This document shows positions 4,494 through 62,990 of a stretch of 64,000 nucleotides of DNA, one piece after another. Under the pieces are notes generated by a model, which saw only the letters and a program-made list of their open reading frames with translations, did not search any database and was not told the origin of the DNA. The first letter of the stretch is position 1, and each line of letters begins with the position of its first letter. Source of the stretch: Chlamydoabsidia padenii (Eukaryota; Mucoromycota; Mucoromycetes; Mucorales; Cunninghamellaceae); the NCBI GenBank assembly GCA_025330725.1, contig JAIWND010000002.1, positions 806,001 to 870,000 on the forward strand. Direction: 5' to 3'. A program made the translations under genes and the position numbers.

Positions 4494-6363
4494 CTACTTT
4501 TTAGTGGGTGGGTTAAGATCACAAGCATGAGGATGTTTGGCACAATACTTGGGTTGATTAGGAATAGCAGCAATACCACGGGCTTGAAGACGATAAACCC
4601 AATCATTGAAACGAGGTTGAACTTCAGCCAACGTACGGCGATTGTTCTTCTTATCATAAGGACCAGACCAAAAGATTTCGGCACCAGCAGCCGTACGAGG
4701 CCAGAGTTTCATATCCAACACAGTAGGACCGGATTGTTCAGACCATAAAGCCAATTCGACACCAAGGACTTTACCAGGATGATTCTTGGAAACACCATAG
4801 GTAGGATCAAAGGTATAAATACGCTGCCATGTCTATCAAAAAAAAAAAAAAAAAAAAAGGAGAGGGGGGGGACATGAGTTAACCAATGATTCTTTCCTAC
4901 CCCTGGTTTGTGTACATACCTTATAAGGAGCACACCATGATCCACCAACACCACCATAGTTAAACACATCGTCAGGTGTTTGTTGTTGAGTAGGGCTGAT
5001 ATAACGTTCATCATCACCAACCCATCCTACCAAAGAAAAAAAAAAGGGGGTGGGAGCAATTAGCTTTGATCATTCCCCATCCATTCATCTAGTACTTACC
5101 ACCATTGCCGCAATCCAAATAAAAGTAATCATTGCTGGTAATGATCACATCATGACCCTTGGAAGTGTAGTTCCCAGCAGGATTGTTCCAGACCTGGACA
5201 ATGACATTCTTATCAAAACTGGCGCCATGACTAGTAGCAGCATTAACAGGATCTTCCCAAATGACAGGACGTTTCTTGGTGTTCTTCTTGACATAATCAA
5301 AGATCTTCTTGGTCCATTGCACCCAGAGTTCATCCGTGGTCAGATTGTGTTTCTTGAGATAATCACTTACTGCCTTGTCTTGTTCCCAGCATTTACCGTT
5401 GATTTCATCACCACCAGTATGATAAAGCGTGTCCGGGAACACATCCGTCGCTTCCTTGATGAGATCCTTGACAAGCTTAAGACCCTTTTCACTAATCGGG
5501 TTGAGTTGACCAGCAGGAGGTTCGGCAGCCAAAGGACCCCAGAATTGGTTGGTACAAGTCATCACGTCAGGATGGGATTCACCAATCACAGCAGTATGAG
5601 CAGGCATATCGATTTCCACATACACACGCACGCCACGAGATTGGCCATACTTGATAATCTTTTGCACGTCTTGAGGAGAGTAAGTTTCCTTCTTGGAATA
5701 GGCACCCTTTTCCGATAGTTCAGGATGAGACTTGAAGACCAGTGGCCAGGATTGAGAGTCGGTAGCGTGCCAGTGGAGGACATTCATCTTGTTGTACGCC
5801 AATGCATCGATGGTACGCAGCAGATCAGAAACAGGGTAAAAGTTACGAGATGTGTCCAAAGAGATACCACGATGGCCATAGGAAGGGCTGTCTTGAATGG
5901 TCGCCGTATGCACCACAGAGCCATGATGAGAATGGGTCACCAATTGAGAAAACGTTTCCAAACCACGCAGAGCACCCACCCAGGTTGGTGCCGTCAATGT
6001 GGCTGCGCCGCCATGAGAAGGTACATCCAATTGGTATGATTCATCCACATCAATATCCAGCTTGACATGGTTGTTTTTCACTTGGAGCTTGAGTTGTCGT
6101 AGTTCATTTGTCTTCTTGAGGGGGGCCGGTTCGTCATAGGGGACTTGAACAGGTTCCCATTTTTCTTTCTGGATCAACTTTGTATATCGTGTGGCGGCTT
6201 CCTTGAGGTGAGTATTTTGAGCACCAATGATCTTGAAATCATGAGATAGGGCTGCACCATGGCCGGTCCATTTGACTTGTTGAGGAATAGGGAAGAGGAA
6301 GGTGTCAGCATCAACCGCACAAAAGAGTAAGGCAGCAGAAGCAATGGCAAATGAGATTTTCAT
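4494..6363 (-). CDS. Secreted beta-N-acetylhexosaminidase (GH20)
   Basis: Exons 6363..5100, 5026..4920 and 4832..4494 give 569 residues. The start encodes a cleavable signal peptide (MKISFAIASAALLFCAVDA). An N-terminal GH20b-like domain precedes the catalytic barrel, with RGISLDTSRNF, LHWHATDSQSWP, EIDMPAH and the catalytic pair in HTGGDE (D319/E320). The C-terminal part has DCGNGGW and ELALWSEQ, the usual aromatic -1 subsite regions. Enzymes of this family release terminal GlcNAc/GalNAc, in fungi mainly from chitin oligosaccharides during wall turnover. The length matches fungal relatives (about 550-620). The second intron contains poly(A/T) runs. A TTTCAAAACCCGAC variant of the recurrent upstream word lies about 115 bp before the ATG. 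Several Asn-X-Thr/Ser sites suit a secreted glycoprotein. Confidence 0.93.
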
Positions 6364-28364: not shown

Positions 28365-30014
28365 CTAGATCATATCCGTCACTATTGTAGAAGAAGTTAG
28401 ACATGGTTTCATGCATATTGTTTGTTGTTATTGTTATTGTTTCCTTACCATTCATAGGCATTTCATCAATTTGGGTACTGTAATATTGTTCGATATCTCT
28501 AAGAATCTTCAAATCATCGTTCTTGACAAAGTTGATCGCCACACCTTTACGACCAAAGCGACCTGATCGACCGATTCTATGGATGTAGTTTTCTCGATTG
28601 CCTGGTAAATCATAACTTGTAACAATAACAAAAAAAAAAAAAAAAAAAAAAAAAGGTTAATTAGTTATAGTCACTCCCTTTAGTTAACTTCTTCTTTATC
28701 TTACTTGATAACCAATGACACCTGTTGTACGTCAATACCACGAGCCCATACATCTGTAGTGATTAACACCCGACTAGATTAAAAAAAAAAAAAGGAAGAA
28801 AGAAGAGAATGTTAGTCTATTTCCACTTGATCACTAGATTGATATCCTTTACTTTACCTGGCACCTTGACGGAATTCATTCATAATAGCATCACGTTCCT
28901 TTTGAGGCATTTCACCATGCATAGCAGATACTGTAAAGTTGGCTTCCCGCATTTTTTCAGTCAACCAATCAACCTATATTAAAATAAAAGAAAGAGTATC
29001 AGTAATATGAATCCATCCATCCCTTTTTTTCGATTTGCCTTATATTACCTTTCGACGAGTATTACAAAAGATGACAGCTTGAGTGATAGTCAAAGTATCA
29101 TACAAATCACACAAAGTATCAAATTTCCATTCTTCTTGTTCCACAGCGACAAAGAATTGCTTGATACCCTCCAAGGTCAATTCATCACGTTTGACCAAAA
29201 TACGAATAGGATCGGACATAAAGTTTTGAGTCATGGTGAGCACATCATGGGGTAAAGTAGCAGATAAGACGACGACCTGAGTAGAAGGTGGCAAGTGGCG
29301 ATAAATATCATAAATTTGATCCTTGAATCCCATGTTGAGTAATTCGTCAGCTTCGTCGAGGACCAACATCTTGATGTTTCGTGTACGCATGCTTCTTCGT
29401 CGGATCATATCGTAGACACGACCAGGAGTACCAGAGACAACATGGACACCGTTTTCCAACCGCCGGATATCTTCACCCACGTTCGTACCCCCAATACACG
29501 CATGGCATTGTACATTCATATAGTCGCCGAGAGCAAGTACCACACTTTGAATTTGAGTGGCTAATTCACGTGTAGGTGAGAGAATCAATGCTTGGGTTTC
29601 TCGTACCGCCGTATCAATCGTCTGGAGAACCGAGATGGAGAAGGTCGCTGTTTTACCTGTACCAGACTGTGCTTGCGCAATCACATCCCTTCCGCGAGTA
29701 ATGGGTACAATCGCTAGTTTATAGTAAGATGGTTTAGTAAAACATTTGATATAAATAATAGTCATTGTTGTTCATTTTACCTCGTTGTTGAATAGCTGAA
29801 GGCTTTTCAAAATTATACGCATAGATGCCACGAAGTAAATCTTCTTTAAGACCAATGGAATCAAAGGTAGGCACTACCTTGACCTATATAATAATAATAA
29901 AGTAACAATCATTAGAGTTTGATGTATCTATATATAGTTCGATTTATATTGGTAACTTACATTTTCAGAAGTTTCAAAGGCGAGTTTGTTGTCAGTTGAG
30001 TGATCGAATGACAT
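28365..30014 (-). CDS. FAL1: DEAD-box RNA helicase eIF4A3/Fal1
   Basis: Exons 30014..29961, 29883..29781, 29713..29049, 28973..28858, 28773..28705, 28615..28449 and 28381..28365 give 396 residues. The order of motifs is complete: Q-motif (EKPSAIQQR), I (AQSGTGKT), Ia (PTRELA), Ib (TPGR), II (DEAD), III (SATLP), and in domain 2 the [10 protein letters not shown] and [13 protein letters not shown] motifs. The sequence from [20 protein letters not shown] to [12 protein letters not shown] is close to animal eIF4A3 and ends in VTDMI, the counterpart of VADLI. eIF4A3 is the RNA clamp of the exon junction complex; yeast Fal1 acts in 18S rRNA processing. The last exon is 17 nt. Retaining the last intron would keep a frame open for about 30 residues. 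CGGGATTTGAA lies about 90 bp upstream on the minus strand. Confidence 0.95.
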
Positions 30015-32177: not shown

Positions 32178-33426
32178 ATGTCACCTTCTACAACACCAAG
32201 TGGTAATCGAAAACATTCACAAACCCGACATTCTATAGTAGACCGATGCTCCACCATTCGCGCCTGTGAACCCTGTCGACGACGTAAAAGACTCTGTAAT
32301 GGACAAAAACCCTGCTTATTGTGTAAAACGGAATCTATTGAATGTGTCTACAGTGTTATCTCGGATCATCCTCGTGGGGTTTTTACAACCAACACAGCCC
32401 GACGTCTTAGCTCCGGGTCAGCTTGTGAAACTTGTCGTCGACGGAAAACGAAATGTGACGGAAGTAATCCTTGTGCCTTTTGCGCTGCCAACAACTTGAA
32501 ATGTGTCAATAATGCCGAACGTAGGAAACGTGCCAGTATATCTGTCACCACATCACCACCATCGTCATCATTATCAACATCACCATCATCATCTCAACAA
32601 GTATTATCACCTTCTTCTTCTTCTTCTTCTACAACAACATCACCTTTACCATCCACATCAAGGTCTTCTTCTACAATAACAAGTACTGCTTTAACTAACC
32701 AACATTCATCAACAACTCAGCCTGGTTCTGATCACGAGACGATGGATCGGATTGAAGATCGACTCAGGCGTATAGAACAACTCATGACTGTATTCAGTCC
32801 AAGCCCACTCTCACAAAGCACCATATATCCTGATAACAACAAGAACAATAATACTAATACTAACGCCAATCGACGAAATTACCGTAATAATAGCACTGCA
32901 GGCAGCCACTTTAATCTTCCACCCCACTTTGTACGTCAACAACGCCACTCGGTTCAAGGGATCGCCGTCGCCAAGGAACAACTGGAATTGAAGATCGCTA
33001 GAAGAGGTATACATATATATATATATATATACATAAAGGATGGGGATGGATGGGGTAATAAACAATGAATTTGAATGTACTCATCTTTTCTTATTTTTTA
33101 TTTTTTTATTTTTATAAATATAGCCATGTCATCCTCACCACCACAATTCGGTCATACACCCTCACCATCATCGGAACGATTACATGCAGGGGCATATATC
33201 ACACCTCCAAACAGTGGTGGGAAAAACCAACAACAACAAGCACCATCACCTCCTCCATTATCACCCGAACAATCTTCGACGATGATCAGACAAACATCCA
33301 ATCAGTCTCATCCATTGACATCATCTATGCTTAACTTGACTTTATCTCCTTCTTCCTCAATATCATCTTCTTCGAACTCATCTTCTATGCATCTTCTACA
33401 ATCCTCCTTGTCGACTCCTCTTAATG

Positions 33427-34059: not shown

Positions 34060-35258
34060 ATGGAAATAGAACCATATAAACTGGAATGGGAAGCACAAGA
34101 TCACCAAGCCATTGAATCCCTTATCAGACAAAAAGAAGCAACGCCCAAGGAACTACGATGCCGCCATTTCAAAGTTAATGACGCTGAATGGACTAGTTGG
34201 ATTATGCTCGAACATTTATACAAGAAAACACCCAGTAGATACCCAACTCAAGCCCGTGGTTTGTTTACTATGCGCCAACCCAATGGTCAATATACTGTGC
34301 AAGTACGTGGCTACGACAAGTTTTTTAATCTTGGTGAAACTGACATGACAAAGGTAACAATGCACACAGACATTCATCTAAATTCCCTCGACTCACTTTT
34401 CCCCTCCCCTTATACCTATTTTAGTGGTCATCTTTGGAACAAAGAACGGTGGGTCCTTATACAATTACAAGTAAAGAAAATGGATGTATCGTTTTTATCG
34501 CTGCGACCTCAGCAACCGAACTGATCGCCACCTCCAAACACATGATCCCTACCCCTCGAGACGATCCTTCGAGTCATGGCGGAGTGGGATATCGGTGGTT
34601 GCAGCAACACTTGGCATCCGTGCACCAGACACCCAGCACTTTGGCGGGCTGGCTCAGCAAGTACCGTGTGACTCTGGTGGCCGAGCTTTGCGATGACAGT
34701 TTTGAAGAACATATCATTCCCACTACCATACCTGGACTCTACCTACATGGCATCAATTACAACACCATCACTGCACTACACACATTACCAATGACCACTG
34801 TCCAACACGTCGCACGTCATTTTGGATTCCATCCTATTCAAGCACATACTGTACAAGACATCTTCACTTTACGATCCAACCTATCAGCTATGAACGAGAA
34901 TGAATCGGAAGGTATCGTCATTCGGTGTGGTATGGACTCGGTGGATTACTTTTTCAAGGTAAAATATGATATGTATTTAATGTATCGGGAATACAGGCAA
35001 GTAACTTTAGCTATACTGGGTGGACTGGACAAGAACAAGAACAAGAAGAAACTCAAGATCCGGTTTGATAAAACTCTGTATTATATCCATTGGTTACACG
35101 ACCGTCTGATGGATCATCCCGAATGGTTTGAAGGATACTTGAACAACAAGGGAATCGTGGCTGTGCGCAAGGCTTTTGAACAAGATTGGTCTGATGGTGG
35201 TTTGGTAGGTGTTGATGTAACTCCTTTGCATGATTGGATAGAAATAGTCAAATGGTAG
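34060..35258 (+). CDS. RNL: Stand-alone tRNA ligase (Trl1-type adenylyltransferase domain only)
   Basis: Exons 34060..34353 and 34425..35258 give 375 residues. It matches the N-terminal ligase domain of fungal Trl1: RGYDKFFNLGE, the nucleotidyl-lysine motif with Lys115 in KENGC, EL in the VAELCDD motif, EGIVIR, and FFKVKYDMYLMYREYR (motif V). The frame ends at a TAG directly after the ligase domain, and no kinase or cyclic-phosphodiesterase domain follows before the next gene. Fungal Trl1 normally carries all three activities; Mucorales are reported to use a monofunctional ligase with end-healing enzymes encoded elsewhere. It seals tRNA halves after intron excision and probably HAC1-type mRNA. 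TTTTAAATCCCGCC lies about 125 bp upstream. Confidence 0.88.
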
Positions 35259-47994: not shown

Positions 47995-50900
47995 CTATGA
48001 TTTTTTGGATTGTTCGACCATCATGCGTGCCGATTGTGGGGCAAACTTCTTGATAGCTGCAATAAGATCGGGGAATCGTAAAGGCTTTGTCACATATTCA
48101 TCCTTGTAACATAGAAAAAAGGGGGTAAGTACAAAAGTTATTGGACATTTTTTTTTTTTTTTAATCTTACCATTCCAGCTTGCATACAACGATCTCGGTC
48201 ACCAATCATTGCATGTGCTGTCAATGCAATGATAGGAATACGGCCCATGTCTGAAGATTGTTCGATTTCCCGAATCTTCTGAGTCGCTTCAAACCCACCC
48301 ATCACAGGCATCTGGACATCCATAAGAATCATATCAAACGGCTGGGATTCAAATGCTTCCACCGCCAATTTGCCGTTGCCTACAATCTTGACATGGTGAC
48401 CAAACTTTTCGAGGATACGCACAGCTAATTTTTGATTCACCACATTGTCTTCAGCTAAAAGGATTTCCAAAGGCACCGTCTTGGAGGCATCACTTGGTAA
48501 TGCGGCATGACTTTCCAACGCAGGTAAGATTGCATCCGATAGGTCAGCCAAGTTGATAGGAGAGTTGATGTAACCAGTAATCCCAAGGTCAATACACAGT
48601 TTCATATTTAACAAGTGTATTTCAGGGGCAATCAGTACAATCGGAGTATAACGCAAAGGCACGATTTCACGAATCTTGTTAGCATACCGCATCTTGTCCA
48701 ATATCACCATGTCGAAGAAAGGAGCCGGCTGGTTTCTGGTAGTATTAGCATTGGCCAAATCTGTCGCTTCGGCAATAGTTGTCACCCGATAAGTTTGAAG
48801 TCCGATTTCTTGTATGCGATCCATCACACCAGTTTGATCATTCATACTATCCAGGAAGAGGACACGACGACCAGTAAATCTTTGCATCTTGGTCATGACT
48901 TCTTTCTTGGGAAGTTCGAGTCGATTGACGTTCATTGTAAAGTAGAATTGTGAGCCTCGACCATAATTGGATTCCACCCAGAGATTACCACCCATCAGTT
49001 GTACCAAGTGTTTTGAGATAGATAGACCGAGACCAGTTCCACCATATTCACGTCTAAAATCAGAATCACATATTAGTCATTGGTAAGTCTTTTTTTTTTT
49101 CTTTTCTTCCCACTACATACGTTGTACTACCATCAGCCTGACAGAAGGTGTCAAAGATGACATGGAGCTTGTCTTCTTGGATACCAATACCAGTGTCGCT
49201 AACACAGAATTCCAACCGCACATGATTGCCTTCCATTTCCACAGTTCGAGTTTGCAAGACCACTTCACCTTGGGTTGTAAACTTGACAGCATTGCCGATC
49301 AAATTGGTAATCACCTGGCGTAAGCGCAACGGATCACCAATGAGTTGATCAGGAATTGCACGGTCCACATTATAAATTAGATCCAGTTTCTTCTGATTAG
49401 CCTTGACAGCCAAAGTTTTCAACACACTAAAGATAGCCGATCGCAGAGAGAAGGGAATAGTGTCCATTGTCATACGCCCAGCTTCGATCTTGGAGATATC
49501 GAGAATGTCGTCAATGATGGTGAGTAAGCTGTTCGCCAGGCTGGATACAATCATTAGGTTTTCGCGTTGTTGTCGAGACAGTTCAGTTTCCAGAGTCAGA
49601 GACGTCATACCAATGATACCATTCATAGGAGTTCGGATTTCGTGAGAAGTGTTAGCCAAGAATTCACTCTTGGATCGATTCGCCAATTCAGCTGCTTCAC
49701 GTGCTTGTCGATTCTTTTGGATTGCATCACGTAGGGAGCCCACCATTTGATTGATCTTGGTTTTTAAAGAATCCATTTCACCCGAAGCCTCCACAGTAAT
49801 CAGTCGAGAGAAATCGTTTTCAGTTGCCGCCGCCGAAATTTGTGCAAACGCCCGGACTTGTGTTGTCAAATTCGAAGCCATCGTGTTGACATTGCTGGTG
49901 ATTTCACGCCATACACCTTCGACATCCATCACCTGTGCTTGTACACCCAGTTTGCCTTCAGTACCAACTTCACGTGCCACCCGAGTTACTTCAGAAGCAA
50001 AAGAGCTGAGTTGATCCACCATTGTATTGATCGTGTTCTTGAGTTCAGCGATTTCACCATGGACTTCGACTTCAATCTTTTTGGATAGGTCACCTTGGGC
50101 TACAGCTTTACAAACAGCAGCAATTGCACGTAGTTGGTCCGTCAAATTACTGGCCATAAGATTCACATTATCAGTTAAATCCTTCCAAGTACCATCTACA
50201 CCAACAATAGTAGCTTGACCACCAAGTTTTCCTTCGGTACCGACTTCACGAGCTACTCTGGTTACTTCAGCAGCAAACACACGTAGTTGGTCCACCATTG
50301 AATTGACAGTTTCCCTATTGAAAAAAAAAAAAAATTAGCAAACTAGACAATACAGTGAATGTATCCCATGATCGCTTACTTTAGTTGCAGAATTTCGCCC
50401 TGGACTTCCACCACGATCTTTCTAGAGAGATCACCTTGAGCCACAGCAGTAGTAACGTCCGCAATAGACCGTACCTGAGTTGTAAGATTACCAGCCATCA
50501 TGTTCACATTGTCCGTAAGATCCTTCCAGGTTCCAGCAACGCCTTGTACAATAGCTTGACCGCCGAGTTTTCCTTCTGTCCCGACTTCACGAGCAACTCT
50601 CGTCACTTCAGAAGCAAATACCCGGAGCTGATCCACCATAGAGTTAACCGTGATCTTCAAATCCAGGATTTCACCCCTAGTTTCGACATGGATCTTCTTG
50701 GATAGATCGCCATTGGCTACAGCTTTGGTGACTTCAGCAATAGATCGTACTTGACTTGTAAGGTTGGCCGCCATGATGTTAACATTGTCGGTGAGTTCGT
50801 TCCACGTTCCTGCCACGCCTTGTACAACCGCTTGGCCGCCTAGTTTTCCTTCAGTACCGACTTCTTTGGACACCCGAGTAACTTCAGATGCAAAGATTCG

Positions 50901-53900
50901 TAGTTGATCGACCATGTTATTGACAATATTCTTGAGTTCGAGAATTTCACCACCAGATTCCACTTCGATCTTTTTGGATAGATCGCCAAGCGCTACCGCC
51001 TTTGTCACCTCCGCTATAGACCGGACTTGATTCGTTAGATTCGCCGCCATGATGTTGACATTGCTAGTGAGTTCATACCAGGTACCCGCCACGCCTTTTA
51101 CTACAGCTTGTCCACCAAGTTTTCCTTCGGTCCCGACTTCTTTAGATACACGAGTGACTTCAGATGCAAAGATACGAAGCTGGTCCACCATGTCATTAAC
51201 GATATTTTTAAGCTCCAGGATTTCACCGCGAGTTTCAACTTCAATCTTCTTGGATAGATCACCCATAGCCACCGACTTGGTTACTTCTGCAATCGATCGT
51301 ACCTGAGTGGTAAGATTGGCCGCCATCTGGTTTACATTATCAGTCAGATCCATCCACGTTCCATCCACATTAGGAACCAGTGCTTGACCACCAAGTTTTC
51401 CATCAGTCCCTACTTCTTTTGCCACCCGAGTTACTTCGGCAGCAAAGACATTGAGTTGGGCCACCATGTTATTGACAGTATTTTTGAGATCGAGAATTTC
51501 ACCCCGAGCTTCGACATCAATGTTCTTGGAAAGATCACCCTTGGCCACGGCTTTTGTCACCACTGCAATCGATCGTACCTGTGTCGTAAGATTGGTAGCC
51601 ATTGTATTCACATTGTCAGTCAAATCCATCCAGGTACCAGCAACACCATGTACCATTGCTTGACCACCGAGTTTTCCTTCTGTTCCTACTTCACGGGCAA
51701 CACGAGTGACTTCAGAAGCAAAGATTCGTAGCTGATCCACCATGTCATTGACAATGTTCTTGAGTTCGAGGATTTCACCACCAGATTCCACTTCGATCTT
51801 TTTGGAGAGATCACCCAGTGCTACAGCCTTTGTTACTTCAGCAATGGATCTTACTTGTGATGTTAGATTTGCTGCCATGATGTTGACGTTATTGGTAAGT
51901 TCGTTCCACGTTCCCGCTACACCTTGTACGACTGCCTGACCACCGAGTTTCCCTTCTGTACCGACTTCTTTTGAGACCCGAGTAACTTCAGATGCAAAAA
52001 TACGTAGTTGATCCACCATGTTATTGACAATGTTCTTGAGTTCCAGTATTTCACCACCAGATTCCACCTCGATCTTTTTGGATAGATCACCAAGCGCCAC
52101 CGCCTTTGTTACTTCAGCAATCGATCGTACCTGATTCGTTAGATTAGCCGCCATGATATTTACATTGTCAGTGAGATGAAGCCATGTGCCCGCCACGCCT
52201 TCTACCATCGCTTGTCCGCCTAGTTTTCCTTCTGTACCGACTTCTTTAGACACCCGGGTAACTTCAGAAGCAAAGATCCGGAGTTGTCCTACCATGTTGT
52301 TGACAGTGTTTTTAAGATCGAGGATTTCACCACCAGATTCCACTTCGATTTTCTTCGAGAGATCACCGAGCGCCACCGCCTTTGTCACCTCGGCAATAGA
52401 ACGCACTTGTGTAGTAAGATTGGCTGCCATAGTATTGACATTGTCAGTGAGATCCATCCAGGTACCAGCCACCCCATGCACCATTGCTTGTCCACCGAGT
52501 TTCCCTTCTGTTCCCACTTCACGAGCCACACGAGTGACTTCAGAAGCGAAGATTCGTAGTTGATCAACCATATCATTGACAATGTTCTTGAGTTCGAGAA
52601 TTTCACCACCAGATTCCACTTCGATCTTTTTGGATAGATCGCCAAGCGCTACCGCCTTTGTCACCTCCGCTATAGACCGGACTTGATTCGTTAGATTCGC
52701 CGCCATGATGTTGACATTGCTAGTGAGTTCATACCATGTACCTGCCACACCTTTTACTACAGCTTGTCCGCCAAGTTTGCCTTCTGTACCAACTTCTTTA
52801 GAAACCCGAGTGACTTCGGAAGCAAAGATACGCAGTTGATCCACCATGTTATTGACGATATTCTTGAGTTCCAATATTTCGCCACGAGCTTCAACATCAA
52901 TATTTTTAGATAGATCGCCAAGCGCCACCGCCTTGGTCACTTCAGCAATCGATCGCACCTGTGTTGTAAGATTTGCTGCCATGATGTTGACGTTATTGGT
53001 AAGTTCGTTCCACGTTCCCGCTACACCTTGTACGACTGCCTGACCACCGAGTTTCCCTTCTGTACCGACTTCTTTTGAGACCCGAGTAACTTCAGATGCA
53101 AAAATACGTAGTTGGTCCACCATGTTATTGACAATGTTCTTGAGTTCCAGTATTTCACCACCAGATTCCACCTCGATCTTTTTGGATAGATCACCAAGCG
53201 CCACCGCCTTTGTTACTTCAGCAATCGATCGTACCTGATTCGTTAGATTAGCCGCCATGATATTGACGTTGTCAGTAAGATGAAGCCATGTGCCCGCCAC
53301 GCCTTCTACCATCGCTTGACCACCTAGTTTTCCTTCTGTACCGACTTCTTTAGAGACCCGAGTGACTTCAGAGGCAAAAATACGTAGTTGGTCCACCATG
53401 TTATTGACAATGTTCTTGAGTTCGAGAATTTCACCACCAGATTCCACTTCAATCTTCTTGGAGAGATCACCTAGTGCTACAGCCTTTGTTACTTCAGCAA
53501 TAGATCGTACCTGATTTGTTAGATTGGCAGCCATGATGTTGACATTGTCGGTAAGTTCATACCAGGTACCCGCCACGCCTTTCACCACTGCTTGTCCACC
53601 GAGTTTCCCTTCTGTGCCAACTTCTTTTGAGACCCGAGTGACTTCAGATGCAAAGATTCGTAGTTGATCCACCATGTTATTAACAATGTTTTTGAGTTCC
53701 AGTATTTCACCACCAGATTCCACTTCAATCTTTTTGGATAGATCACCATTGGCTACCGCTTTTGTCACTTCAGCAATTGACCGTACCTGATTCGTTAGAT
53801 TCGCCGCCATGATGTTGACATTGTCAGTGAGTTCATGCCACGTTCCTGCGACACCTTGCACCACAGCTTGTCCACCTAGTTTTCCTTCAGTACCTACTTC

Positions 53901-56900
53901 TTTGGACACCCGAGTGACTTCAGAGGCAAAGATACGAAGTTGATCCACCATATTGTTGACAATGTTCTTGAGTTCCAGTATTTCACCACCAGATTCCACA
54001 TCAATTGTTTTGGATAAATCGCCCATGGCCACAGCTTTGGTGACAGCAGCAATAGATCGCACTTGTGTTGTTAGATTCGCCGCCATATGATTGACATTGT
54101 CGGTCAGGTCCATCCATGTCCCACCCACATTCGGTACCAGGGCCTGTCCCCCTAGTTTACCCTCCGTTCCAACTTCTTTGGCAACCCGAGTGACTTCAGA
54201 AGCAAACACACGCAGTTGGTCCACCATATTGTTGACAATGTTCTTGAGTTCCAAGATTTCACCACGAGCTTCGACATCAATATTTTTAGATAGATCACCC
54301 ATAGCCACCGACTTGGTCACTTCTGCAATCGATCGTACCTGAGTGGTAAGATTGGCCGCCATCTGGTTTACATTATCAGTCAAATCCATCCACGTTCCAT
54401 CCACATTAGGCACCAGTGCTTGACCACCAAGTTTTCCATCAGTCCCTACTTCTTTTGCCACCCGAGTTACTTCGGCAGCAAAGACATTGAGTTGGGCCAC
54501 CATGTTATTGACAGTATTTTTGAGATCGAGAATTTCACCCCGAGCTTCGACATCAATGTTCTTGGAAAGATCACCCTTGGCCACGGCTTTTGTCACCACC
54601 GCAATCGATCGCACCTGAGTTGTTAAATTAGCTGCCATCGTATTCACGTTATCAGTCAAGTCCTTCCAAGTGCCGCTGACGCTCGGTACAATTGCTTCAC
54701 CACCTAGTTTTCCTTCTGTGCCGACTTCACGAGCCACCCTAGTGACTTCTGATGCAAACACCCGAAGTTGATCTACCATGTTGTTGACAGTATCTTTAAG
54801 ATCAGATATTTCACCACTGACATCGACCATAATTTTCTTGGAGAGATCGCCATTAGCCACAGCTTTAGTCACCACAGCAATCGAGCGCACTTGAGTTGTA
54901 AGATTGGTAGCCATCGTGTTGACATTGTCGGTAAGGTCCTTCCATGTTCCATCCACATTAGGCACACGGGCCTGTCCACCGAGTTTCCCATCTGTTCCTA
55001 CTTCTTTGGCTACCCGAGTGACTTCAGTAGAGAAGACGCGGAGTTGATCCACCATGTCGTTTACAGTATTCTTGAGGTCTAATATTTCACCACGAGTTTC
55101 CACATCGATCTTCTTGGAAAGATCACCCATGGCCACGGCTTTGGTAACACCTGCAATGGATCGTACTTGTGTCGTAAGATTAGCCGCCATCGTATTCACA
55201 TTGTCTGTAAGATCCTTCCATGCCCCGCCCACATCCTTGACGTTTGCTTGACCGCCAAGTTTGCCTTCCACCCCGACTTCTAGTGAGACCCTCCGCACTT
55301 CGGCTGAGAACAGTGTTAATTGATCAACCTATAATATATATATATAAAACAAATGTTAGTATGTACAAAAGGAAAAGAGAATATTTGTTTTAAGAGTATT
55401 ACCATTTGGTTCATTGTGTTTTTCAGTTCGAGGACTTCCCCTTGAGCATTAGCCTTGACTTTCTTTGTGAGATCACCACATGCGACTGCTTTGGCCACCA
55501 CAGCAATATCCCGTACTTGACCAGTAATCTTGTATGTCATCATATTCACATTGTCGGTTAGATCTTTCCATGTACCAGCCACATCCTTGACCACAGCCTG
55601 ACCGCCCAATATACCATCCGTCCCCACTTCAAGTGAGACCCGAGTAACTTCAGTAGCAAATATAGATAGCTAGATCATAAAAAAAAAAAAAAAAAAGGTT
55701 AAATTAAAAAAATCGAGTCGATTTCCCTAATTTCAGACACCTTAATTTTTAATCCATGCATTTATTCATTACCTGATCGACCATGGTATTGATAGTGTTT
55801 TTCAAATCCAGCATTTCACCTTTTACTTCTACCGTCACCTTTTTAGTCAAATCACCCCGTGCAACGGATTTTGATACTTGAGCAATGTCCCGTACTTGGT
55901 TTGTTAGATTGGTAGCCATAGTGTTTACATTATCAGTTAGTTCTTTCCATATTCCATCCACACCAGCGACCTTGGCTTGAGCACCGAGCTTTCCCTCTGT
56001 TCCCACTTCATGGGCAACACGAGATACTTCAGAGGCAAACAGATTTAGTTGGTTAACTATAAAAAATTAAATTAAAGAATGGTAATGTTAGTTCCTGTCA
56101 AATTTCAATGTCCACTGTTCCCCTTTTTTTCACACTCCCCCCATCTATGCAACTTCCTTTTCAGGTATGGTCTTGTACCACCATAACCAGAAAAAAAAGT
56201 TTTACATGAAATGAATGATTCAGAATAAACAAATTATGTACAGAGCCAGAAATTCTGTTATCATCCACATCCCCTCCTCCTACCATTTTTTGACTTACCC
56301 ATTGTGTTAAAGGTATTCTTGAGTAGCAGAGTTTCACCTTTCACCGGGACTGTCATAGCCTTGCTGAGATCACCACGAGCAATAGCAGTAGAGACATCGG
56401 CAATATCGCGGACTTGTTCCAAATGATTTCGAGTCATGCTGTTGAGATTGACGACAAATTTGTGCCATACACCTTTCATCGGACGATCGCACCTGACCTG
56501 GACACCTAGTTTACCCTTGACGGCAGTTTGTTGAGCCACATAAAGTACTTCTTCAGTGATAGATTGAAGATGATCTGCCATGGCATTGACAGCATTCTTG
56601 AGAGTGTTAATAGGAGCATTTTTAGACGTGACCTTGATGTTGCATCGTTCGTGAGTACAAGTGATCCGCTGATCGAGTTCGCCAGCAAACACCGCAGAGG
56701 CAACCTTGACCGCTTGAAGGACACAATCAGGACAGACAATATTATCGGCAGAAGTATGAGATGAGGCAGCAGGGAATGTTGAAGCATTCAAAGTAAAGTA
56801 ACTTGTGGGTGATGAGAATGATACAGGATAAGCAGAGGCAGATGATGATACAGTAAAAGGCAAAGGAGGAGTGGTCGTGGCTGTTGTTGATGAAGTCGTA

Positions 56901-57759
56901 GAAGAAGAGGCAAGTCCGGAAGCAGTTGTTGAGTAGTAGCCATTTGATGGTGAAGTGGCTATTATAAAATAAATGAGTTTTAGTTAGTATATAAAAAAAA
57001 AGTTTCAAGTTCCTACTTTATAGTGACAATAAACATACCAAAATAAGTAGATGATTGTGATACAGTAGGTAAAGGAGGGATAGATTGACATGAAGAGTGC
57101 ATTTTATCCACCAGAGAAGAATCCAGTAAAGAAGGAGGCATGTTTTCTTCAGGTGTGACATTTGTTGAATCAGTAGTGTTTGAGGACGATGTGTTATTAT
57201 GGCGTCTACGGCGAGTGGTTCGACTCTGTTCTTCGTCATCGTCCAGTTGCTCTATAAAAGGTGTTTCCACTATTTCTTCAATACCATTGGATTTGTATAA
57301 TAAATGTTGATGTTCAATGCCAATACGGTACCGCAAATTTTCTGTTTCCAGTTGTAATTGACGTTGAGCAATGTTCTTCAGGGCGGAATCCATGTAGTGT
57401 AGCATTTCCAGTTGAGCAGGATCCAGTGTTGAGTAATCAGAAGAGTTTGCATCCGGAAGGCGTTGACTAAGACAATAATCAATGTTACCTTGATCCAAGT
57501 GCCTTACCAGGTTGTGGACATACTGTATAGTGTCCATTGTTGTTGTCTTGTCGTTTGTTGGTGTGTCTTTCTTCAAGTCGTTGTTGTTGCTTTTAATGTC
57601 GTCGATAACTGAGTTGTCGCTGATTGAAGAGGTGTTGCTGCGTTCACTTCCGTTATCAGAGTTGGTATGAGAAGAAGAAGGGCTGGTATTATTAAGAGAG
57701 GAAGAATAGGGTTTTTTGTGTAAACGGGTGTGAAGATCGTCAGAAGAAGAGCGTTTCAT
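47995..57759 (-). CDS. NIK1: Giant group III hybrid histidine kinase (Nik1/Os-1 type) with 23 poly-HAMP units
   Basis: Exons 57759..57039, 56958..56299, 56056..55773, 55669..55403, 55328..50380, 50314..49121, 49053..48171 and 48102..47995 join in frame to about 3021 residues. A Ser/Asn-rich N-terminus with a short coiled coil is followed by 23 units of about 92 residues (signature GKLGGQA...[11 protein letters not shown]...[30 protein letters not shown]), then the H-box [10 protein letters not shown] (His about 2518), N-box [19 protein letters not shown]-boxes DTGIGI and GGTGLGL, a degenerate receiver-like segment, and a receiver with phospho-acceptor Asp (about 2937, LMDVQMP) and K in TKPL. 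There is no membrane span. Group III kinases are cytosolic osmosensors feeding the Hog1 pathway and targets of phenylpyrroles and dicarboximides; known members have about 5-9 units and 1100-1350 residues. Downstream wiring is inferred from family. Confidence 0.95.
50380..55328 (-). repeat. In-frame tandem array of eighteen 276-bp HAMP-unit repeats
   Basis: One exon of 4949 nt holds 18 consecutive 92-codon units with no length variation. Five further units (three N-terminal, two C-terminal) lie in neighbouring exons. Near-identical DNA blocks recur at exact multiples of 276 bp: 51877/52981 (4 units), 50991/52647 (6 units) and 51325/54361 (11 units). Protein units 8 and 12, counted from the exon start, are identical. 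This is the pattern of unequal exchange or gene conversion inside the array. Confidence 0.93.
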
Positions 57760-61163: not shown

Positions 61164-62990
61164 ATGAGAGTTCCGTCTGGATGTTCGAAAATCGATAAAG
61201 CAGACATCCTTGACAAAGTGAAAGGCCTGATATTTGGTAAGACAAAGCATATCATATTACGTAGATCCACAGCTGCCATTCATCAATACATATATACATA
61301 CATACATACATACACACTCTTCATGATCCCCATAGTACACAATTTCGATACTGCATTGTGAACTCCGACCGACCGGCACTCATCATCCCTTTTTTTTTTT
61401 TTGTAAATCAAATGATTTGATTGGTTCGACTCATTCTATGATACAATATTAGGTGCAGTCATTGGGGACAGCCTTGGAATAGCGACTGAAGGGATGACAA
61501 AAAGCCAAGTGAGTGCTATCTATGGCGAAGGTCCTATTCAATTCGGTATTGATGATGAAGGTATTCCCTTTCTGCGCGATGACTATCGATCTGCTTTTGA
61601 TGACAAGTAAGTTAGGAGTCCTTGTCGTTTTCTATAAAGGAGGCGAGCACTTTTTTTCTGCAAAACGCCCTTAAAAAGTTTAAATGGCGGGATTTGAAAT
61701 CATGTTTCAGTGCAGGGATACTAAAAACCACGGCTATCTGATTTTCCGCTTATTTTTTTTTTTTCCCCCTTTATAGTGATTTTGGCGGCGACACTGAACA
61801 ACAACTTTTAATAATCCAATCCATCATCCAAACCGGTACCTTCAACTATAAAGAATATGGCAAACTATTGCAAAAATACAGTGAATGCGGTCTACAAGGA
61901 TTACACAAGAAACCATTAGGGATTAACAAAACAAGTCAAGACGTGGTCGCACATCCTGAATTCGCAACTAATCCAGTAAGTTAAAACAAGACAAAAAGAA
62001 GAATTGTATATTGTTTAAACTAATGTTTTACTTTTATACTAAACTTAGTGGAAAGCAGCCGAAGATGTTTGGCGATCCAGCAACAAACGACGGGGACCAA
62101 GTGGAGCACTGGTGCGGGCAGCATTACTAGGTGTACCTAAATTCTGGGATGGTACAACTGTGATTGAAAACACCACCGATTGTTGCCGTCTTACTCATCC
62201 TGACCCAAGATGTATGATGTCCTGTGCGATTGTTTCAACTTTGGTGGCAAGAATCCTACGTGGTCAAGATTTGGAAAATGACGATACTGACGACGATATT
62301 AATTTAATGGCACCTTCTTTACCACCTACACCCACCTCTGCTCACCAAACAACTACCAATGGCAAAGTCAGTCTAGCACCACCACCACCACAACAACAAC
62401 AACAACATTATAACATGACACCTCCTCCTTCCTCACCACCACCAGCAGCAGCAACAACAACAACAACTAATTCATCTTGTTATCACCTTGAAACTGACCT
62501 CACTCTGATGAAACTTGTACGTAATGTGATTGATACAAACAAACGAATCCTCATTGCACCCAATACCGATCCACTCTTCCGAACCCCTGAAACCGACATT
62601 GAACTTACTAGACAGTATTATGCAACATTGGTGGAAACTTGCTCTTATTTCGAAGGTGGACGTATTGACTTTGATTTTTTAAAATTGGATTCATGGATGA
62701 CGGACAACAGTAATGATGATCAACAACGACAAGGCTCTTTTGAATGTCTTACTGCCGGGATCTACTCTTTTACACGTCGGCTTCCAGTGGGTCAAGAAAC
62801 TGAAGCATTCAAGCATATACTAATGGATTTGGTAATACAAGGTGGGGAAGCTGATACGAATGCAACGGTAGCAGGTGCTCTTATGGGTGTCAAGATTGGA
62901 TATTCTCAGTTACCTTCTGAATGGGTGGTAGGTCTCAAGCGATGGGAATGGCTGGAAGACCTGGTGGATGAATTCTGTGGTTTACTTTAG
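61164..62990 (+). CDS. ADP-ribosylglycohydrolase family protein
   Basis: Exons 61164..61236, 61453..61606, 61777..61975 and 62049..62990 give 455 residues. The fold's landmarks are in order: GAVIGDSLG near the start, the metal-binding segment NDFGGDTEQQLL (counterpart of D-D-T in DraG/ARH enzymes), GPSGALVRAALLGVP, a Cys/His-rich HPDPRCMMSCAIVSTLVARI helix, and the C-terminal GGEADTNATVAGALMGVKIGY metal motif. These enzymes remove ADP-ribose from proteins or related substrates using paired Mg ions. An insertion of about 75 residues, acidic then Pro/Gln/Ala/Thr-rich (about 245-320), interrupts the helical core and is probably a disordered loop. The substrate cannot be told from sequence. Intron 2 carries an exact CGGGATTTGAA (61688-61698). 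Confidence 0.85.

Follow-up and report, generated by a model that had tools for sequence, protein, structure and literature searches.

A group III type histidine kinase of Chlamydoabsidia padenii with a poly-HAMP stalk of 23 units, and its long-stalked homologues

The DNA analyzed here, hereafter the window, is a 64,000-nucleotide stretch of the Chlamydoabsidia padenii genome (contig JAIWND010000002.1, positions 806,001 to 870,000). On its reverse strand lies a complete gene for a group III (Nik1/Os-1) type hybrid histidine kinase, the stalk of which comprises 23 repeat units of exactly 92 aa each (residues 369-2484). The best reading of this protein is an ordinary long-stalked Mucorales osmosensor and, judged by its homologues, so long a chain is an ancient feature of the lineage rather than a one-off. 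The spliced gene has 8 exons and 7 GT-AG introns of 65, 67, 68, 74, 80, 103, and 242 bp, all free of N, and its stop codon ends at 47995; both the span and the length of 3021 residues agree with those given in a preliminary description of this DNA. The features of the gene are as follows.

47995..57759, reverse strand: complete gene for a group III type hybrid histidine kinase, 3021 aa (spliced model)
57039..57759, reverse strand: exon 1, low-complexity N-terminus with RRRR at residues 183-186 (spliced model; no Pfam match)
56299..56958, reverse strand: exon 2, unit 1 and a weak first canonical half, residues 325-371 (spliced model, half-unit profiles)
55773..56056, reverse strand: exon 3, unit 2 and the start of unit 3 (spliced model)
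55403..55669, reverse strand: exon 4, remainder of unit 3 (spliced model)
50380..55328, reverse strand: exon 5, units 4-20 and most of unit 21 in a single uninterrupted exon of 4949 bp (spliced model, TRF, Pfam)
49121..50314, reverse strand: exon 6, remainder of unit 21, units 22-23, HisKA, and the start of HATPase (spliced model, Pfam)
48171..49053, reverse strand: exon 7, end of HATPase, a stretch that we take to be pseudo-receiver-like, and most of the receiver (PF02518, PF00072)
47995..48102, reverse strand: exon 8, end of the receiver (TKPL) and stop (spliced model, motif)
49744..56575, reverse strand: poly-HAMP array, 23 x 92 aa, residues 369-2484, introns counted in (spliced model, half-unit profiles)
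49477..49674, reverse strand: HisKA with the phospho-accepting His, motif starting at residue 2517 (PF00512, E 1.2e-18, and motif)

Support for the way in which the exons were joined comes from a paralogue in the same genome (C18; the genome spans 34.2 Mb in 95 contigs), since its model, made in identical fashion, equals the public C. padenii protein P0054 letter for letter. PF00512, PF02518, and PF00072 (HisKA, HATPase, and C-terminal receiver) all score above cut-off in the window kinase, and the H, N, G1, and G2 boxes as well as the receiver motifs are all present, the H box being judged by its motif rather than by alignment against named group III kinases. The catalytic boxes and receiver are thus intact, as had been proposed. 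The Pfam run covered exons 1, 5, 6, and 7, in which no credible sensor domain besides HAMP was found. Elsewhere, the window encodes on its forward strand a Zn2Cys6 domain protein with two matched stretches (32178-33068), a T4-type RNA ligase domain (34434-35258; PF09511, E 2.1e-46), presumably as in fungal tRNA ligase, and an ADP-ribosylglycohydrolase domain (62112-62990; PF03747), while its reverse strand carries a family 20 glycosyl hydrolase (5089-6363) and a piece of a DEAD-box helicase (29040-29765).

A poly-HAMP stalk of 23 units of 92 residues, each possibly a canonical HAMP paired with a divergent one, had been suggested from the letters alone, with a HAMP profile search as the proposed check; the 23 units and the two alternating halves in each were upheld. 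The 92-aa register is kept throughout the 23 units, TRF reports a 276-bp period at 50379-55268 (17.7 copies, score 4269), the exon 5 reading frame is open across 1649 aa, and PF00672 matches 17 stretches in exon 5 and one in exon 6. Separate profiles of the two halves, divergent (D) and canonical (C), were made from the window units and rebuilt once from homologues; they resolve the array into 24 canonical and 23 divergent halves in strict alternation (C D C D ... C). The first canonical half is weak (9.3 bits, E 0.0089), so the chain is counted as 46 or 47 modules. A fixed-lag check of the array found no clear higher-order repeat, with a mean identity of 0.74-0.81 at lags 1-12.

Both Pfam HAMP models, PF00672 and PF18947, match best on the canonical half, and no Pfam HAMP match was seen on the divergent half. 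Among NCBIfam models, the best match to the array is the Aer2 receptor, with 17 stretches that are all far under cut-off, the best of them covering 91 residues. The closest solved structures by sequence are 9trk and 9trj (~3 and ~2 such units, respectively), in which a histidine kinase is fused to Gcn4p. In the available text on CaNik1p, its nine HAMP domains are described as four pairs of 92 aa plus one single (PMC3848655). Resting on this description, the sub-cut-off Aer2 match, and the 9trk and 9trj matches, the divergent half is probably a HAMP-like module. Aer2 itself shares concatenated HAMP modules with the window kinase (3LNR; PMC3570549), whereas, according to the portion of that report consulted, it combines three plus two HAMPs with a PAS domain and a chemoreceptor output, and the window array stays below its NCBIfam cut-off.

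The window protein has the architecture of fungal group III kinases. CaNik1p, DhNik1p, TcsC/NikA, and Drk1 share with it the HAMP pairs (of 92 aa in CaNik1p), HisKA, HATPase, and receiver (PMC3848655, in part), and the tandem N-terminal HAMP repeats of ~90 aa that serve as the group III criterion are present as its 23 units. The earlier assignment to the Nik1/Os-1 type therefore stands on the domains, and the tree described below groups the protein with Mucorales homologues. It differs in repeat number. The excerpts available give 5-7 repeats (PMC5159414) or five to six (PMC3848655) for described group III kinases and six HAMPs for TcsC (PMC6652806); we read 5-7 as the range of the members studied so far and not as a definition. 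Extended poly-HAMP regions are also mentioned, in the accessible part of one study, for the myxobacterial proteins AskA, AskB, and Amb07 (PMC7643160), which are bacterial and are set beside the window kinase by description and not by sequence. Among the titles and abstract beginnings listed in searches of open-licence papers, no description of fungal arrays of such length was found. Group III and gene duplication come up in a review whose scope includes Mucoromycotina kinases (PMC4965123), and a second paper mentions group III in early-diverging fungi, with the word HAMP absent from its main text (PMC5285503); the passages on these kinases seen in the two papers do not describe a long array.

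The view that a chain of 23 units is exceptional was nevertheless contradicted by the genome itself and by the homologue survey that had been proposed along with it. The C. padenii genome holds two paralogues, C1 (2517 aa) and C18 (2521 aa), which share the exon plan of the window gene and have 18 units each, their middle exon of 3569 bp (vs 4949 in the window gene) being five units shorter. With the kinase part as query, 8000 candidates were scored, 7993 of them homologues, and the best 120 were considered, a list that includes P0054, the C18 paralogue. Eligible proteins were 0.55 to 1.75 times the query length, so the list favors long proteins: those under ~1660 residues fell outside the search, and the list can establish that long chains are common but says nothing about the absence of short ones. 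Unit number (counted as D units) ranges from 10 to 40 in these 120, with 14 proteins at exactly 23 units and 17 above, so that 31 have at least 23. The largest counts belong to Linderina (40, a partial entry with irregular spacing), Coemansia P0122 (39), Coemansia reversa and C. spiralis (37 each), and Kickxella (35, irregularly spaced), although counts for single proteins are uncertain owing to gene models and repeat-prone assemblies. The long-array homologues, from Mucorales, Mortierellomycotina, Kickxellomycotina, and some Basidiomycota, share the architecture and the unit of the window kinase and are mostly annotated as hypothetical proteins; those of Kickxellomycotina have more units than it does. 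One JGI protein (P0118) has 20 units and GAF domains. A tree was built from 84 of the 123 proteins, none of them a characterized kinase. There the window kinase belongs to a clade of seven rows (SH-aLRT 99); its companions are the 23-unit kinases of Absidia cylindrospora, A. repens, and Halteromyces, those of Gongronella and Hesseltinella with 21 units each, and that of Cunninghamella blakesleeana with 20.

The RRRR run near the window kinase N-terminus (window 57202-57213) is putatively nuclear-signal-like, and the first 400 residues of C1 and C18 lack any K/R run of at least three. Because the N-terminus of TcsC directs that protein to the nucleus (PMC11253588, from the section available) and the run is absent from the paralogues, the window kinase and its paralogues may differ in cellular location.

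The unit itself is shared with bacteria. A two-unit query gave at least 580 bacterial matches, of which the best 80 loci (78 distinct) were examined. These poly-HAMP hybrid kinases are 77-82% identical to the query and show the same alternation, in 84 of 84 frames; arrays in the 70 complete frames have 3-15 units, and the proteins mostly continue for 900-970 aa after the array vs ~530 in the window kinase. Among units scoring >40 bits (717 from this bacterial sample, which was picked by similarity, and 2369 from the fungal set, which includes P0118), the same residue reaches ≥80% in both sets at 50 of the 92 columns, and the two consensus sequences agree at 75 of 92 positions. At five bacterial loci (L032, L071, L074, L075, and L078), the array is spread across two or three frames, due to either broken genes or sequencing errors.

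Strict C/D alternation holds in 121 of the 123 proteins, so length changes occur in whole pairs. Two like neighbors appear in 11 proteins, nine of which merely have one module called twice (through a split, insertion, or small deletion), whereas the greater part of one module is missing from P0040 (Rhizopus arrhizus) and from P0055 (Kickxella), by gene-model error or real loss. Within Mucoromycotina, both ends of the stalk keep the same units and the middle varies. Window units 1 to 5 keep their N-terminal position in 57, 56, 56, 54, and 51 of the 59 rows, respectively, units 6 and 7 do so in 46 and 36, unit 22 is next-to-last in 57, and unit 23 is last in 58; the middle units have no fixed place, with a maximum of 13 rows for unit 16. 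Of all units, 23 is the only one that holds its place in each of the 10 Mortierellomycotina rows. The uninterrupted exon 5 holds units 4 to 20, among them the variable ones, and recombination at its 276-bp period would explain whole-pair steps without selection. In the C18 paralogue (L010), unit 14 of 18 is 0.89 identical both to its own unit 7 and to its C1 counterpart, while the remaining 17 same-position C1/C18 pairs have identities of 0.95-1.0; this unit looks like a mosaic from conversion between units.

Judging from substitution rates, the units are under strong purifying selection. By the Nei-Gojobori method, with part of the dS values saturated, the median dN/dS among units 4-20 is 0.075, and the ratio in ten similar pairs is 0.011-0.095. 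All 18 same-position units of C1 and C18 have dN values (0-0.067) lower than that of the C-terminal part (0.07), and 11 paired units of the window kinase and C1 have dN of 0.027-0.101 vs 0.127 for that part. As the C-terminal part includes the fast pseudo-receiver stretch, the comparison was repeated with the HisKA and HATPase core alone, using identity to the window kinase in 59 Mucoromycotina rows and 24 others. The next-to-last unit is above the core in 55 of the 59 Mucoromycotina rows (median 0.97 vs 0.88), the last unit in 52, and unit 2 in 56, while unit 1 is above in just 2 and below in 57. Rows with the last unit below the core are four Rhizopus (67-68% vs 87-91%), Zychaea_a, Lichtheimia_corymbifera_b (0.32, a match that is probably broken), and, marginally, C1; for the next-to-last unit they are Hesseltinella_a, Umbelopsis, Dichotomocladium_b (0.32, probably broken), and C1. 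Among the 24 rows of other groups, the last unit is above the core in 22, and the next-to-last is above in 8 and below in 16. Both these rows and unit 1 rule out that units are more conserved than the kinase everywhere; within Mucoromycotina, and not outside, most of the fixed units exceed the kinase core in conservation.

We consider it probable that the window gene encodes an intact Mucorales group III kinase that works as a dimeric rod in a Hog1 relay, with an old stalk altered by whole pairs. The protein would be a soluble dimer in which the HAMP modules, 46-47 in number, stack into an unbroken rod ending on the HisKA helices; at 16-residue helices and 1.5 angstrom per residue (~24 angstrom per module), 47 modules give an estimated rod length of ~110 nm. 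The kinase would phosphorylate a Ypd1-type carrier and thereby hold Hog1 quiet, and stress would shift the stack such that the kinase stops or becomes a phosphatase, which releases Hog1. No characterized Mucorales group III kinase was found among the open-licence papers surveyed, and for this reason both the pathway and the sign of the output are drawn by analogy to DhNik1, CaNik1p, and Drk1, like which we infer the window protein acts. As far as the accessible sections of these reports go, DhNik1 kinase activity restrains Hog1 phosphorylation in yeast (PMC5159414), CaNik1p stripped of all its HAMP domains leads to activated Hog1 in yeast transformants and deletion of single pairs lowers fungicide susceptibility (PMC3848655), fludioxonil makes Drk1 a Ypd1 phosphatase in vivo and fludioxonil sensitivity is lost when repeats are deleted or changed to a constitutive kinase (PMC6433957), and adjacent HAMPs are proposed to switch alternately (PMC3570549). 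An exon-by-exon search of the C. padenii genome yielded 11 HisKA matches (three Nik1-type genes among them), 24 receiver matches, and two Hpt matches, the latter being Ypd1-like genes that each have the motif HFLKGSSAAIGL. In the crop/fungus table of a fludioxonil review seen in part (PMC5159414), which concerns crops and fungi and not the kinase, sweet potato is listed next to Rhizopus stolonifer, a species with a 19-unit kinase (P0052), so the fludioxonil response is not obviously lost with a long chain. The chain itself would have grown and shrunk by whole pairs of halves, most probably through unequal recombination or conversion between the 276-bp units of exon 5, with the first units and the last two keeping their places in Mucoromycotina.

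Whether the number of units matters is where other readings diverge. In the preliminary description, such length was proposed to change the relay of signals and phenylpyrrole-type inhibitors, or perhaps to provide a graded sensor. Unit number might set the threshold, gain, or reach of a length-tuned sensor, with selection keeping a clade-specific value. Median unit numbers do differ by clade (Mucorales subfamily a 21, subfamily b 18, Mortierellomycotina 23, and Kickxellomycotina 34), all 4 rows of the window kinase's smallest clade (support 87) have 23 units even though Halteromyces lost one and gained one relative to the window, and the purifying selection on the units fits such a role. Yet subfamily a spans 12-26 units, and selection for constant length was looked for and not found: of 22 pairs chosen, 12 are non-redundant and have unmatched units, and their 47 unmatched units and summed squared net change of 53 are close to an unbiased random walk; these figures come from rough hand arithmetic, and the unit aligner may overcount unmatched units. 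We regard length tuning as unlikely. It is more doubtful still that the middle units are a neutral spacer, drifting in number and sequence, with the end units alone signaling. Fixed ends, a middle variable in number, and the random-walk-like changes are what this would predict for Mucoromycotina, but the low dN/dS of units 4-20 and of the ten similar pairs, as well as the 50 columns held alike in bacterial and fungal-set units, speak against drift in sequence.

The weakest alternative, an array inflated during assembly from a true gene with far fewer units, is very unlikely: tandem repeats are easily misassembled, and Rhizopus entries on ~9-60 kb contigs with only 10-13 units suggest that unit numbers can come out wrong (in those entries more likely through collapse), but exon 5 has no exact repeats of 200 bp (those of 180 are present), its units 4-20 differ by a pairwise median dS of 1.34 (dN 0.12), frame and register are kept in 23 of 23 units, and the 23-unit kinases of Absidia cylindrospora and A. 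repens pair with the window kinase unit by unit at 97-100% and 96-100%, respectively. Synonymous divergence between units likewise ruled out a recent tandem expansion. Few young-looking pairs occur among the ten similar pairs tested (units 11/15, dS 0.23; 7/18, 0.29; 13/19, 0.31).

A broader and more tentative possibility is that the Nik1-type stalks of early-diverging fungi, with up to ~40 pairs (the partial Linderina entry, and 37-39 in Coemansia), may be modular allosteric rods of evolvable length, which lengthen by pairs between end caps nearly invariant in Mucoromycotina and whose units are under strong selection. If true, the length of an allosteric rod would be an evolvable setting, reaching ~110 nm in the window kinase. 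The long-stalked kinases bear on two open issues, how signals pass along HAMP chains and what group III kinases sense, and widen a picture drawn from studied kinases with about 5-9 repeats or domains. Their stalks form a natural series, from 10 to 40 similar units and with 18, 18, and 23 in the three paralogues of a single genome, in which the effect of chain length can be tested.
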